Assembly (NCBI GenBank): GCA_017394445.1
Contig: JAFPYT010000386.1
Coordinates: 1-33,119, forward strand
Direction of reading: 5' to 3'
Length of the DNA stretch: 33,119 nucleotides
From: Bacteroidales bacterium
GTDB lineage: Bacteria; Bacteroidota; Bacteroidia; Bacteroidales; UBA3824
Part shown: positions 10,608-14,011 of the stretch, piece after piece
Layout: each line of letters begins with the position of its first letter
Numbering within the stretch: position 1 is the first letter of the stretch
Made by a program: the position numbers and the translations under genes
The notes under the pieces: generated by a model
Databases searched by the model: none
What the model was told of the DNA's origin: nothing
The model's input: only the letters and a program-made list of their open reading frames with translations

Positions 10608-11360
10608 ATGAACAATCCAAAAATATCTGTTGTAACAGTGGTTTACAACAGCGCGGCACTTATAGAAAATACCGTTAAAAGTATTATAAATCAATCGTAT
10701 AGCCACATAGAATACATAGTGGTGGACGGCGGAAGCACCGATGGCACTATCGACATTCTCAATCGTTACAAAAAAAATATTTCTACCCTCTTATCCGAAC
10801 CCGACCGCGGTATTTACGACGCTATGAACAAAGGTATCAGCCTTGCCACTGGCGATTTTGTGGTGTTTATCAATTCGGGCGACAAATTTTCTTCGCCAGA
10901 CATTCTTGAAAAAATTTTTTCTAACCCCGACGCCGCACAAGCCGACGTTATCTATGGCGACACCGACATCACCGACTCAGATGGCAATATTATCCATTCG
11001 CGCCGTCACCGTCCGCCCGAAACACTCGATTGGAAAAGTTTTAAGCGAGGAATGTTGGTTTGCCATCAAAGTTTTATAGCAAGGCGCAATTTGATAGATA
11101 GTTACGATTTAACATACCGTTACGCAGCCGATTTTGATTGGTGCATTCGCATTCTTAAAAAATCTAAGAGCGTGCACAACTCCCGTCAGGTTATAAGCCT
11201 TTTTCTCGAAGGCGGACAAACCCGCAAGACCATTGTCCCCGGCTTAAAAGAACGTTTCCGCATAATGCGCCACCACTACGGACTTATTTCAGCCACATTT
11301 TGGAATATAATATTAGGTGTGCGGTTTACGTGGTTTGTGATACGGCATAGATGGTTTTAA
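10608..11360 (+). CDS. Glycosyltransferase family 2 (GT-A fold, WcaA/WcaE-like)
   Basis: 250 aa. The start PKISVVTVVYNSAALIENTV is the family-2 nucleotide-binding strand; VDGGSTDGTIDIL follows, then SEPDRGIYDAMNKGISLATG. FINSGDKF holds the D-x-D-like metal site near residues 86-93, and YAADFDWCIRILK near 168-180 is the catalytic-base region typical of colanic-acid-type transferases. No transmembrane domain is evident. It is monocistronic and convergent with the AAA_14 gene 17 bases downstream. Probably adds one sugar to a surface polysaccharide; the sugar is unknown. Confidence 0.92.
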   Translation: MNNPKISVVTVVYNSAALIENTVKSIINQSYSHIEYIVVDGGSTDGTIDILNRYKKNISTLLSEPDRGIYDAMNKGISLATGDFVVFINSGDKFSSPDILEKIFSNPDAAQADVIYGDTDITDSDGNIIHSRRHRPPETLDWKSFKRGMLVCHQSFIARRNLIDSYDLTYRYAADFDWCIRILKKSKSVHNSRQVISLFLEGGQTRKTIVPGLKERFRIMRHHYGLISATFWNIILGVRFTWFVIRHRWF

Positions 11361-11376
11361 ACAGCATTAAAAACCC

Positions 11377-12522
11377 TTAGGCAAACAATTTTCCATTCCA
11401 AAGGCGCGACAAAAACTCTTTGGCAGGCCAAACCTCCACACCGTTAAACAATCGTGGGCGTTCCTCCAACGATACCACAATTAGTTTGCAATCAGGATAT
11501 TCCTCTTTAAACGCCTTTAATCCTTTGAGATGAGAAGAAACCACGTTTGCCGACGATTTGATTTCAATAGCCACTTCGGCATCGCCAATTATAGCATCAA
11601 CCTCGTAGGCATTGTTGAGAGTATGCCAAAATGAAAGTTTCTTATCAGATTCGGTATAATCGAGATATGCGGCAAGTTCTTGAATAATAAGATGTTCAAA
11701 AGCGTGACCATATTCAGAAGTTCCTCTGGTTAAACGTCCTCGGTGAAGCAAATGATTGGTAATACCCGTGTCGAAATAATAGAACTTGGGCGACAACTGA
11801 ACTTTACGCTTCAAAACCTTTGTGTATGCGGGCAGAAACATACCAATAAGCGTCTCCTCCAAAATAGTAAAGTATTCTTTAACAGTTTTTGCCGAAACAC
11901 CGCAATCGGTAGCAATTTTGGCGTAATTTACCATTTCAGAATCACTGAGAGCCGCCACCTCCAAAAACCGTGTAAAAGAATCCAAGTTTCGCACCAATGC
12001 CTCGGCAATAATCTCTTGTTGAAGATAATCACCGATGTAGGCTTGCAGACGTTTTTGCGGAGTGGTGGAAAGATAGTGGCGCGGCATCATTCCGTAATTG
12101 ACCGCACGGTCTAAATCAAAATCGGGTATTTCAGCACTAACCAACGGATGGAGAACCTTGCGAATAGCCCTTCCGCCAAGAAGGTTAGCCCCCGAACGTT
12201 TTAATTTGCGTGCGCTCGACCCGCACAAGATAAAATTGATACCGCGGTTGGTAATAAGCCAATGAACCTCGTCGAGCAACGAAGGAATTTTTTGAACCTC
12301 GTCGATAATAACGGTAGACCCTTCGTCAAGCATCATACACTCCTCGCGCAACTGCGACGGACGGAGTTTGTATTGAGCGTAAACATCAGATTTCAACAAG
12401 TCGTAATAAGGGGCATCAGGGAAAAGTTGTTTCAAGAGAGTGCTCTTGCCTGTCTGCCTCGGGCCCCACAGAAAAATACTATCTGTTTTAATATCGTTAA
12501 GCGAAAGAAGTCTGTCTAACAT
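11377..12522 (-). CDS. AAA_14/DUF4143 family ATPase
   Basis: 381 aa. The N-terminal ATPase has Walker A GPRQTGKST (20-28) and Walker B STVIIDEVQKIP (69-80), with the sensor-like LCGSSARKLKR. The C-terminal DUF4143 half includes the nuclease-like KLSFWHTLNNAYEVDAIIGD and VAIEIKSS, which resembles the E-V-D ... E-I-K core of PD-(D/E)XK enzymes. These proteins are abundant in Bacteroidota, often single genes among accessory DNA, and their biological role is not settled. It has its own good promoter (12545-12576); 40 bases beyond its start lies a two-copy 28-base direct repeat. The downstream gene is convergent. Confidence 0.92.
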   Translation of the reverse strand: MLDRLLSLNDIKTDSIFLWGPRQTGKSTLLKQLFPDAPYYDLLKSDVYAQYKLRPSQLREECMMLDEGSTVIIDEVQKIPSLLDEVHWLITNRGINFILCGSSARKLKRSGANLLGGRAIRKVLHPLVSAEIPDFDLDRAVNYGMMPRHYLSTTPQKRLQAYIGDYLQQEIIAEALVRNLDSFTRFLEVAALSDSEMVNYAKIATDCGVSAKTVKEYFTILEETLIGMFLPAYTKVLKRKVQLSPKFYYFDTGITNHLLHRGRLTRGTSEYGHAFEHLIIQELAAYLDYTESDKKLSFWHTLNNAYEVDAIIGDAEVAIEIKSSANVVSSHLKGLKAFKEEYPDCKLIVVSLEERPRLFNGVEVWPAKEFLSRLWNGKLFA

Positions 12523-12544
12523 AATTATTTAGTTTAGTATTTTG

Positions 12545-12576
12545 CAAAGTTACTAATAATAAAAATATTAAACAAA
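12545..12576 (-). promoter_or_regulatory. Promoter of the AAA_14 ATPase
   Basis: On the minus strand TTTG (12573-12576), 20 bases, TAACTTTG (12545-12552), 22 bases before the ATG. A perfect consensus match. Confidence 0.75.
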
Positions 12577-12587
12577 AAATTTTAATG

Positions 12588-12647
12588 AAAAAATGGAGTA
12601 CAACTTCCGATTTTATCGCAAAAAATGGAGTAGCACTTCCGATTTTA
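12588..12647. repeat. Two-copy direct repeat, 28 bases, period 32
   Basis: The copies at 12588-12615 and 12620-12647 share AAAAAATGGAGTA, then CAACTTCCGATTTTA or GCACTTCCGATTTTA, differing at two positions. They lie just upstream of the AAA_14 promoter. A partial third match (AGCACTTCC) occurs near 12873. Confidence 0.85.
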
Positions 12648-12723
12648 ACCAAACAAAAATGGTTTTAACATTCTTTAATTACCTTTTAAACCTCTTAACA
12701 ATAATAAGTTGTTACTTTGCACC

Positions 12724-12815
12724 GTAATAAATCAGAAAAAAAAATTGTCTTTTTCATAAATACAGAGTTTAATAGTAACAACCAAAAGGGAGGCGCGCTG
12801 AGGCCTCCTTTTTTT
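12724..12815 (+). ncRNA. Candidate small RNA 1 (about 90 nt)
   Basis: A promoter-like TTACTTTG (12712-12719) is followed by about 90 bases with no open frame and a strong terminator at 12784-12815. No good -33 box is seen. The body holds ATTGTCTTTTTCATAA (12744-12759) and TAGTAACAAC (12773-12782), which recur in the second candidate 250 bases away. I cannot assign it to a known RNA family. Confidence 0.45.
12784..12815 (+). terminator. Terminator of candidate small RNA 1
   Basis: An 11-bp stem (12784-12794 with 12803-12813, one G-U pair), an 8-base loop and a run of seven T at 12809-12815. Confidence 0.85.
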
Positions 12816-12955
12816 GTTTTAAGTGTAGTTTTAACAATAAATCCAACTTATTTTTACAAAACGGTATAAATCAGCACTTCCACAGCCTCAATTTTTAACG
12901 AAAATTCTCACTTTGTTTAATATCCATATAAAATAACCGCCATATCTTTGCAATC

Positions 12956-13071
12956 GGAAAAAGCGATGAGATATCGACTTTTTCAGAGTAAATAATTGTC
13001 TTTTCATAATATTAGGTTTAGGTTAAAAATTAGTAGCAACAATGGCAGGGAAACCTGCTTTTGTTGTTTTT
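12956..13071 (+). ncRNA. Candidate small RNA 2 (about 115 nt)
   Basis: TATCTTTG (12944-12951) is a perfect -7 box without a clear -33. The predicted transcript opens with a hairpin, GAAAAAGCGAT pairing with ATCGACTTTTTC across a 5-base loop with one bulge (about 12958-12984). It then carries ATTGTCTTTTCATAAT (12995-13010) and TAGTAGCAACAA (13031-13042), both shared with candidate 1, and ends in a strong terminator. No protein-coding frame fits the segment. Confidence 0.45.
13036..13071 (+). terminator. Terminator of candidate small RNA 2
   Basis: GCAGG and CCTGC close a GAAA tetraloop (13050-13053); with CAACAA/TTGTTG outside, the stem reaches 14 bp with one mismatch, then five T (13067-13071). 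Confidence 0.85.
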
Positions 13072-13082
13072 ATGGGTACAGG

Positions 13083-13114
13083 TTTGACAAGTTGACCAAA
13101 AAAAATTATCTTTG
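13083..13114 (+). promoter_or_regulatory. Promoter of the 13133-17068 operon
   Basis: TTTG (13083-13086), 20 bases, TATCTTTG (13107-13114), 18 bases before the ATG. A perfect consensus; it starts 12 bases after the small RNA terminator and leaves a very short leader. Confidence 0.8.
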
Positions 13115-13132
13115 TAGCCAAAACCAATCACG

Positions 13133-14011
13133 ATGGATTCCGAAATAATGCTTGTAAAAAACGAGGACATTGACCGCAAGCAATGGGACAGCGCCGTGTC
13201 GCAAACGCCTTATTGCTCGCTGTTTGGATATTCGTGGTATCTCGACAACGTTTGCACCACTTGGGACGCGCTCATTACCCGAAACTACCGCCGCATTATG
13301 CCCATACCAGTGTTTGAAGGGCAGCACCAGCAAATGCAGCAGTACCTTTTATGGTCGGGAATCTACGGCAGCGAAATCACCACGAGTGCAATTGCCGAGG
13401 AGTTTATCAACCACATACCCGAAAACTACAACGGGCTTTACCTCAACTTCAACAAACTCTGCGACATATCTAACGTAGAAAACGGACTTATCCATCACGA
13501 AAAAGTTTATCAAATCGACCTCTTGCAGCCTTACCGCAATAGAAGGTTTCAAACGCCCGCCACATCCAACAAAAAATACTCGGTAGACGCAAAACAATGC
13601 GTGTCGTTCTTTTTGGTAAACAACTACAAAACCGAGAGCATACTATATTTCCAACTTTTAAAAGAAGTAAAGCAGCGCGGACACTGCCTGATTTTTGCCC
13701 TTGCCAACACCGACAAAATTATTCTCGGATGCGCAGTGGTATTTATCTCACAGACAGAGATTTACCTAACCGACATCAGCATCAACAAAAACCAAAAAGA
13801 CTACAAAGCCATCAAAAACGAACTCTTGGATACTATAATCAGTTACTTTTCGGGCAAAAACTTCACACTTTATATTAAGACCAACAAAAGGGGCGTGTAC
13901 GACAGTTTCGACACCGAAACACTCGAACTTTTCGATGCCGTGCCATACCCACACATTTATTATATAAGAAACAATATTTCGAAACTATTTAATTTTTTTA
14001 ATTTTAAATAA
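13133..14011 (+). CDS. FemAB/GNAT-like hypothetical protein
   Basis: 292 aa. The N-terminus (QWDSAVSQTPYCSLFGYSWY, then LDNVCTTWDALI and YRRIMPIPV) matches a Bacteroidales family of FemAB-fold, GNAT-like proteins that begin W-D-x-C and continue Y-x-x-S-W-Y-L-D. The central domain (residues ~160-250) has the beta/alpha pattern of an acyltransferase (LIFALANTDKIILGCAVVFI). The substrate is unknown; FemAB relatives use aminoacyl-tRNA, other GNAT enzymes use acyl-CoA. It is the first gene of an operon and ends 2 bases before upp. The ATG at 13148 is an alternative start, but 13133 gives the usual N-terminus. Confidence 0.78.
   Translation: MDSEIMLVKNEDIDRKQWDSAVSQTPYCSLFGYSWYLDNVCTTWDALITRNYRRIMPIPVFEGQHQQMQQYLLWSGIYGSEITTSAIAEEFINHIPENYNGLYLNFNKLCDISNVENGLIHHEKVYQIDLLQPYRNRRFQTPATSNKKYSVDAKQCVSFFLVNNYKTESILYFQLLKEVKQRGHCLIFALANTDKIILGCAVVFISQTEIYLTDISINKNQKDYKAIKNELLDTIISYFSGKNFTLYIKTNKRGVYDSFDTETLELFDAVPYPHIYYIRNNISKLFNFFNFK

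Follow-up and report, generated by a model that had tools for sequence, protein, structure and literature searches.

A probable tandem pair of FopS-type small RNAs in an uncultured ruminant-gut Bacteroidales bacterium

The window, which is the whole 33,119-nucleotide stretch of DNA analysed here, comes from an uncultured ruminant-gut bacterium of the order Bacteroidales. Between two of its genes there is a gene-free stretch of 610 nt (12523-13132), within which the list of open reading frames has no annotatable frame of 60 or more residues. Two segments of this stretch, called candidate 1 and candidate 2, are arranged on the + strand according to a common plan: a -7 box, a first box ATTGTC-T5/T4-CATAA, a second box TAGTA(A/G)CAAC, and a hairpin with a U-run. 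The segments are spaced 251 nt apart. The two predicted small RNAs are 95-118 nt in size and have -7 boxes of the form TAnnTTTG/TTnnTTTG. The features are as follows.

12665-12669 (TTAAC), 12675-12679 (TTAAT) and 12695-12699 (TTAAC), + strand: boxes upstream of candidate 1, proposed regulator site
12712-12719, + strand: -7 box of candidate 1, TTACTTTG, read from the sequence; TT(A/T)CTTTG in the relatives G003, G017, G012 and G015
12724-12818, + strand: predicted transcript of candidate 1; fold z -2.27; conserved in place in relatives
12744-12759, + strand: first box of candidate 1, ATTGTCTTTTTCATAA
12744-12772, + strand: predicted seed of candidate 1, ATTGTCTTTTTCATAAATACAGAGTTTAA, antisense to ATG AAA AAG ACA; weak FopS match
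12773-12782, + strand: second box of candidate 1, TAGTAACAAC
12777-12818, + strand: predicted terminator hairpin and U-run of candidate 1 (hairpin 12784-12818, its stem continued by 12777-12781)
12895-12899 (TTAAC) and 12917-12921 (TTAAT), + strand: boxes upstream of candidate 2, 52 and 30 nt before the TTTG of its -7 box
12943-12950, + strand: -7 box of candidate 2, TATCTTTG, read from the sequence and kept in relatives
12956-13073, + strand: predicted transcript of candidate 2; fold z -3.85; FopS alignment; homologues in 18/18 genomes of the genus
12957-12984, + strand: 5' leader hairpin of candidate 2; folds in the window, G012 and G015 despite changed sequence
12994-13035, + strand: core and predicted seed of candidate 2, antisense to ATG AAA AGA CAA; 51.5-bit match to the model R1 (see below)
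12995-13009, + strand: first box of candidate 2, ATTGTCTTTTCATAA
13031-13040, + strand: second box of candidate 2, TAGTAGCAAC
about 13031-13072, + strand: predicted terminator hairpin and U-run of candidate 2, second box included

Direct reading of the sequence places the -7 boxes, the shared boxes and the terminators where an earlier note on this DNA had put them, and the TTTG -33 box is missing from both candidates, where the note had seen no good -33 box. The two-box pattern ATTGTCTTTT-N0-2-CATAA-N5-35-TAGTARCAAC is not a chance occurrence, since the whole 3.92 Mb genome has exactly two instances of it, both at this locus, and the reversed-pattern control has 0. Shuffled sequences fold worse than both transcripts (z -2.3 for candidate 1 and -3.9 for candidate 2). 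The first box is mostly unpaired in the predicted folds, in agreement with the earlier description of both shared boxes as unpaired. That description does not hold for the second box, which forms the base of the terminator stem in candidate 2 and does so in part in candidate 1. According to these folds, what is both free and conserved is a stretch of about 40 nt from ATTGTC onwards.

Between a glycosyltransferase gene (10608-11360) and the RNA pair lies the gene of an AAA_14/DUF4143 ATPase (11377-12522, - strand). It occupies this spot in the window, G003 and G017, and is absent in G012, G015, G009 and G001. The 10-bp sequence ATGGTTTTAA is situated at both edges (11351 and 12659) of the ATPase segment (11351-12668), which, judging by its edges, has the look of a recent insertion involving either target duplication or microhomology. 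Behind the ATPase start there are two 32-bp direct repeats (AAAAAATGGAGTA..ACTTCCGATTTTA; 12588-12651), which occur nowhere else in the genome apart from one 3-mismatch match on C87.

The FopS RNAs, described only recently, control glycan uptake in gut Bacteroides and were reported to be conserved within the Bacteroidaceae (PMC11697453). In human-gut Bacteroides, these RNAs silence sugar-importer genes by covering the start codons. At gathering scores, the Rfam search that the earlier note had proposed found only tRNA, and nothing at the two segments. At lax thresholds, FopS (RF04319) aligns to candidate 2 at 12998-13073 (29.4 bits, E 0.022) and to candidate 1 at 12747-12818 (19.4 bits, E 1.9), and GibS (RF04182) aligns at the same places with 22.7 and 18.4 bits. 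All these alignments fall on the seed. Both candidates miss the curated FopS cut-off of 56 bits (the best FopS score in their own genome is 38.3 bits), and the GibS scores are far under the corresponding 115 bits. In the reverse direction, a sequence-only model of 44 positions (R1), made with candidate 2 together with eleven relatives from its genus, candidate 1 and all FopS being left out, recovered the annotated FopS site at the right place and on the right strand in 10/10 FopS loci from other families (best E 1e-5, worst E 0.013). Because homology is found in both directions, from Rfam FopS to this locus and from R1 to the FopS loci, candidate 2 is regarded on sequence grounds as related to the Bacteroidales small RNAs FopS and GibS, though diverged from them. 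R1 gives candidate 2 a score of 51.5 bits; candidate 1 taken alone scores only 6.5 bits.

The anatomy of the pair has much in common with that of FopS (RF04319; PMC11697453): an unpaired seed U4-5-CAU-xx-UAUUAG-(A/G)UUUA-GGUUAA with an intrinsic terminator immediately after it, multiple copies that also occur in tandem, a seed antisense to SusC-type start codons (here by prediction, clear for candidate 2 and weak for candidate 1), and an encoded RRM-1 protein. The conserved unpaired R1' seed, with a minimum free energy of about 0, is present in candidate 2 and only partly in candidate 1; the terminator directly after the seed, a requirement of FopS membership, is present in the folds. The paralogues in the genome are at least candidates 1 and 2, C174 and C319, fewer than the 12-15 found in Bacteroides. 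The known FopS RNA begins with its seed (TTTGCAATGTG|TTTTTCAT) and starts directly with GUGUUUUUCAU, whereas here the seed is not at the extreme 5' end, as a leader of 22-72 nt separates the -7 box from TTTTCAT, judging by the predicted starts. Furthermore, AUUGUC here extends the seed into the coding part of the target, the upstream promoter boxes are unlike those of FopS, the seed of candidate 1 has drifted after CAUAA, and the host belongs to another bacterial family. The R1 seed of GibS and its unstructured 5' region, pairing around start codons, are likewise similar (RF04182; PMC7366714). GibS itself, compared by description, is longer and has a second seed, R2, and a PM2 promoter (PMC7366714, PMC11697453). 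Since neither the curated score nor the 5'-terminal position of the seed is reached, the pair is filed as a FopS variant and not as a formal member. There is nevertheless a strong case for a tandem FopS-type pair, in which the assignment of candidate 2 is firm and that of candidate 1 likely.

R1 matches are found in 18/18 genomes of the genus and include three strong orthologue classes (C248, C174 and C319 types). With one genome taken per GTDB species, the exact DNA pattern is found in 28 stretches, all from Bacteroidales metagenome-assembled genomes and nearly all from ruminant or horse gut. FopS scores above its cut-off in 46/247 sampled Bacteroidales genomes with well over ten family labels, often in tandem; in one known example (G140) the copies are about 250 nt apart.

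G003, G017, G012, G015, G009 and G001 all retain the tandem pair, located behind the same glycosyltransferase gene. In eight syntenic or paralogous loci, the candidate 2 core is identical letter for letter, and the leaders and terminator stems differ. A terminator-like hairpin folds in all family members, with stems unlike one another. This invariant box among changing leaders and terminators bears out the earlier proposal that the small RNAs are duplicates in which the unpaired box is the functional part and one terminator can stand in for another. The 5' hairpin attributed to candidate 2 does fold at 12957-12984; it is lineage-specific and, being missing in G009, was rejected as a family feature. 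The seed of candidate 1 (12744-12766) has the same sequence in G003, G017 and G012 and almost the same in G015. Among the upstream copies, that in G001, ATTGTCTTTTCATAATATTGGTTTAAGTTGATATTAG, is near the candidate 2 type (19.7 bits with R1), that in G009 is intermediate (14.4 bits), and that in the window is the most drifted. This gradation, together with the same pair being present in other genomes, indicates that candidate 1 is a tandem duplicate of candidate 2 with a drifted seed, as far as can be read from the aligned copies. A 23-nt match in another family (G028, L036) was rejected as a homologue of candidate 1, as it lies on the opposite strand of a dehydrogenase gene start.

That the segments are small coding genes or a dispersed repeat element instead of RNAs would agree with the 9-codon reading frame in the candidate 2 leader and with the multicopy core. 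This is extremely improbable, as the reading frame is lost through indels in G012 and G015, conservation is confined to the core and does not reach the ends, and almost all copies come with a promoter-like box of their own and with terminators that are not alike.

Counted back from the TTTG of the -7 box, the family promoters have TTAA(C/T) boxes at 51, 41, 30 and 21 nt, approximately one DNA turn apart, in all family types. Candidate 1 has those at 51, 41 and 21 nt, of which the ones at 51 and 21 are kept in 6/6 genomes with the pair. At least two phased boxes are found within one base of these positions in 24/31 distinct family promoters versus 5/730 background promoters (3/730 at the exact positions), a contrast that is large but not a clean probability, because the positions were first read off family promoters and orthologues were counted repeatedly. 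The boxes would suit a putative regulator that binds direct repeats along one face of the DNA, which lends support to the earlier suggestion of an activator and provides a concrete handle on that regulator. The phased array is missing from the known FopS loci examined. A looser promoter motif, TTAACATT, was rejected because it is not promoter-specific genome-wide; only the fixed positions are. An apparent third copy of the repeat D1 (13093-13114) was found to be the promoter of the next gene.

The position of the pair, on the same strand as and just upstream of the gene at 13133, might be expected of a cis-acting leader or attenuator of that gene. However, a separate -7 box, TATCTTTG, belongs to that gene (near 13107-13114), a terminator intervenes, and the same genomes have homologues at many places unrelated to this one, so that regulation in cis is highly unlikely.

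The same phased TTAA(C/T) boxes are found at five protein-gene promoters of G003 (L134, L175, L196, L208, L237). These genes include a TypA/LepA-like GTPase and exported proteins; a shared regulon is possible. In other families (L250, L254-L257, L259), a palindrome like TGTTATATAACA lies upstream of the FopS -7 box and is a candidate site for a FopS regulator.

The reverse complement of the first box is TTATGAAAAGACAAT in candidate 2 and TTATGAAAAAGACAAT in candidate 1, that is, a start codon followed by AAA AGA or AAA AAG. Pairing was calculated for 1668 ORFs in 2.29 Mb of sequence of G003, a relative with 99% identity at this locus, with start codons called mechanically and duplex energies that leave out mRNA accessibility. 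Candidate 2 forms duplexes of -16 kcal/mol or better with 108 starts versus 51/1579 internal in-frame ATGs (shuffled seeds: mean 16, maximum 46), and the seed CAU lies on the start AUG in 84/100 of its best start duplexes. Candidate 1 forms such duplexes with 46/1668 starts and 40/1579 internal ATGs (shuffled seeds: mean 7, maximum 15), with little difference between internal ATGs and true starts in how well they pair. For either seed, pairing with gene starts is much better than for any of 15 shuffled seeds. Long exact antisense targets were not found outside the pair itself.

The starts of SusC/RagA genes were taken as the sharpest test, as this is the target class known for FopS in B. thetaiotaomicron (PMC11697453). 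When 36 such starts from six genomes of the genus were ranked among all starts, the median rank for candidate 2 was 0.058, with 17/36 in the top 5%, compared with medians of 0.17-0.66 and 0-7 starts in the top 5% for 12 shuffled seeds; the shuffles, not p-values, are the guide here because orthologues are not independent. The preference persists among signal-peptide-like starts (16/36). The predicted pairing agrees with the earlier suggestion that the boxes might serve for pairing to targets. For candidate 1 the preference is modest (median 0.243, 6/36 in the top 5%, shuffles 1-6), although the top 0.5% of starts includes 3/6 SusC starts of its own genome. The number of strong SusC matches varies within the genus, from 14-18 in G001, G008 and G016 to 4-6 in G000, G003 and G009.

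These ranks bear on whether candidate 2 alone is functional, candidate 1 being a decaying duplicate that is still transcribed and has no important targets. Its low R1 score, weaker SusC preference and sequence variation between lineages would be accounted for in this way. Nevertheless, at least four more species-level genomes retain its promoter boxes, box 1 and strong terminator, its seed at 12744-12766 is conserved, and the boxes at 51 and 21 nt persist in all six genomes, making decay improbable. It is considerably less probable still that the conserved RNAs act as a sponge, the seed mainly titrating an RRM protein instead of repressing mRNAs. RbpB binds the 5' part of FopS in B. thetaiotaomicron (PMC11697453), and the genome encodes one RRM_1 protein, of the same class as RbpB, but neither the antisense-to-start design nor a SusC enrichment beyond that of shuffled seeds is expected of a pure sponge.

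The reading that we prefer, with a probability of roughly 0.74, is that the two segments encode trans-acting small RNAs of the FopS type, arranged in tandem and repressing mRNAs with which they pair at the start codon. It is drawn from the anatomy, homology, conservation, antisense-to-start design and predicted SusC enrichment, all of them sequence evidence, and by prediction the pair works like FopS. Transcription of each RNA, on the + strand, would depend on a Bacteroidota -7 box, apparently with the help of an activator bound to the phased TTAA(C/T) boxes, and would stop at the intrinsic terminator of that RNA. In the cell, the unpaired seed (ATTGTC-U4/5-CAUAA and what follows) would pair with the start codon and flanks of mRNAs whose proteins begin with MKR or MKK, mainly exported proteins and above all SusC/RagA-type importers, and so block translation initiation. 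The likeliest function, on the modelled duplexes, is to repress the translation of mRNAs for SusC-type and other exported proteins. The single RRM-1 protein may antagonise repression, as RbpB does for FopS in B. thetaiotaomicron.

Candidate 2 would be the conserved member of the family and candidate 1 a duplicate whose seed gained a U and drifted, and for this reason the target set of candidate 1 should differ. A more detailed scheme is put forward only tentatively: a single phased-box regulator would control the pair, and the change from U4 to U5 (MKR to MKK starts), together with the drift, would retarget the duplicate to other exported-protein mRNAs, diversifying a FopS-type network outside the Bacteroidaceae. 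The duplicate is a natural experiment on seed change and targets, and the pair illustrates duplication and drift of such RNAs. The occurrence of a diverged FopS form in an uncultured ruminant-gut lineage, where the predicted target class is unchanged, points to antisense-to-start control of SusC importers as an old mechanism that is widespread among Bacteroidales.

Among the viral contigs of IMG/VR no copies of the genus type were found, and 24 of these contigs (L260-L283) carry the exact Bacteroides FopS seed.
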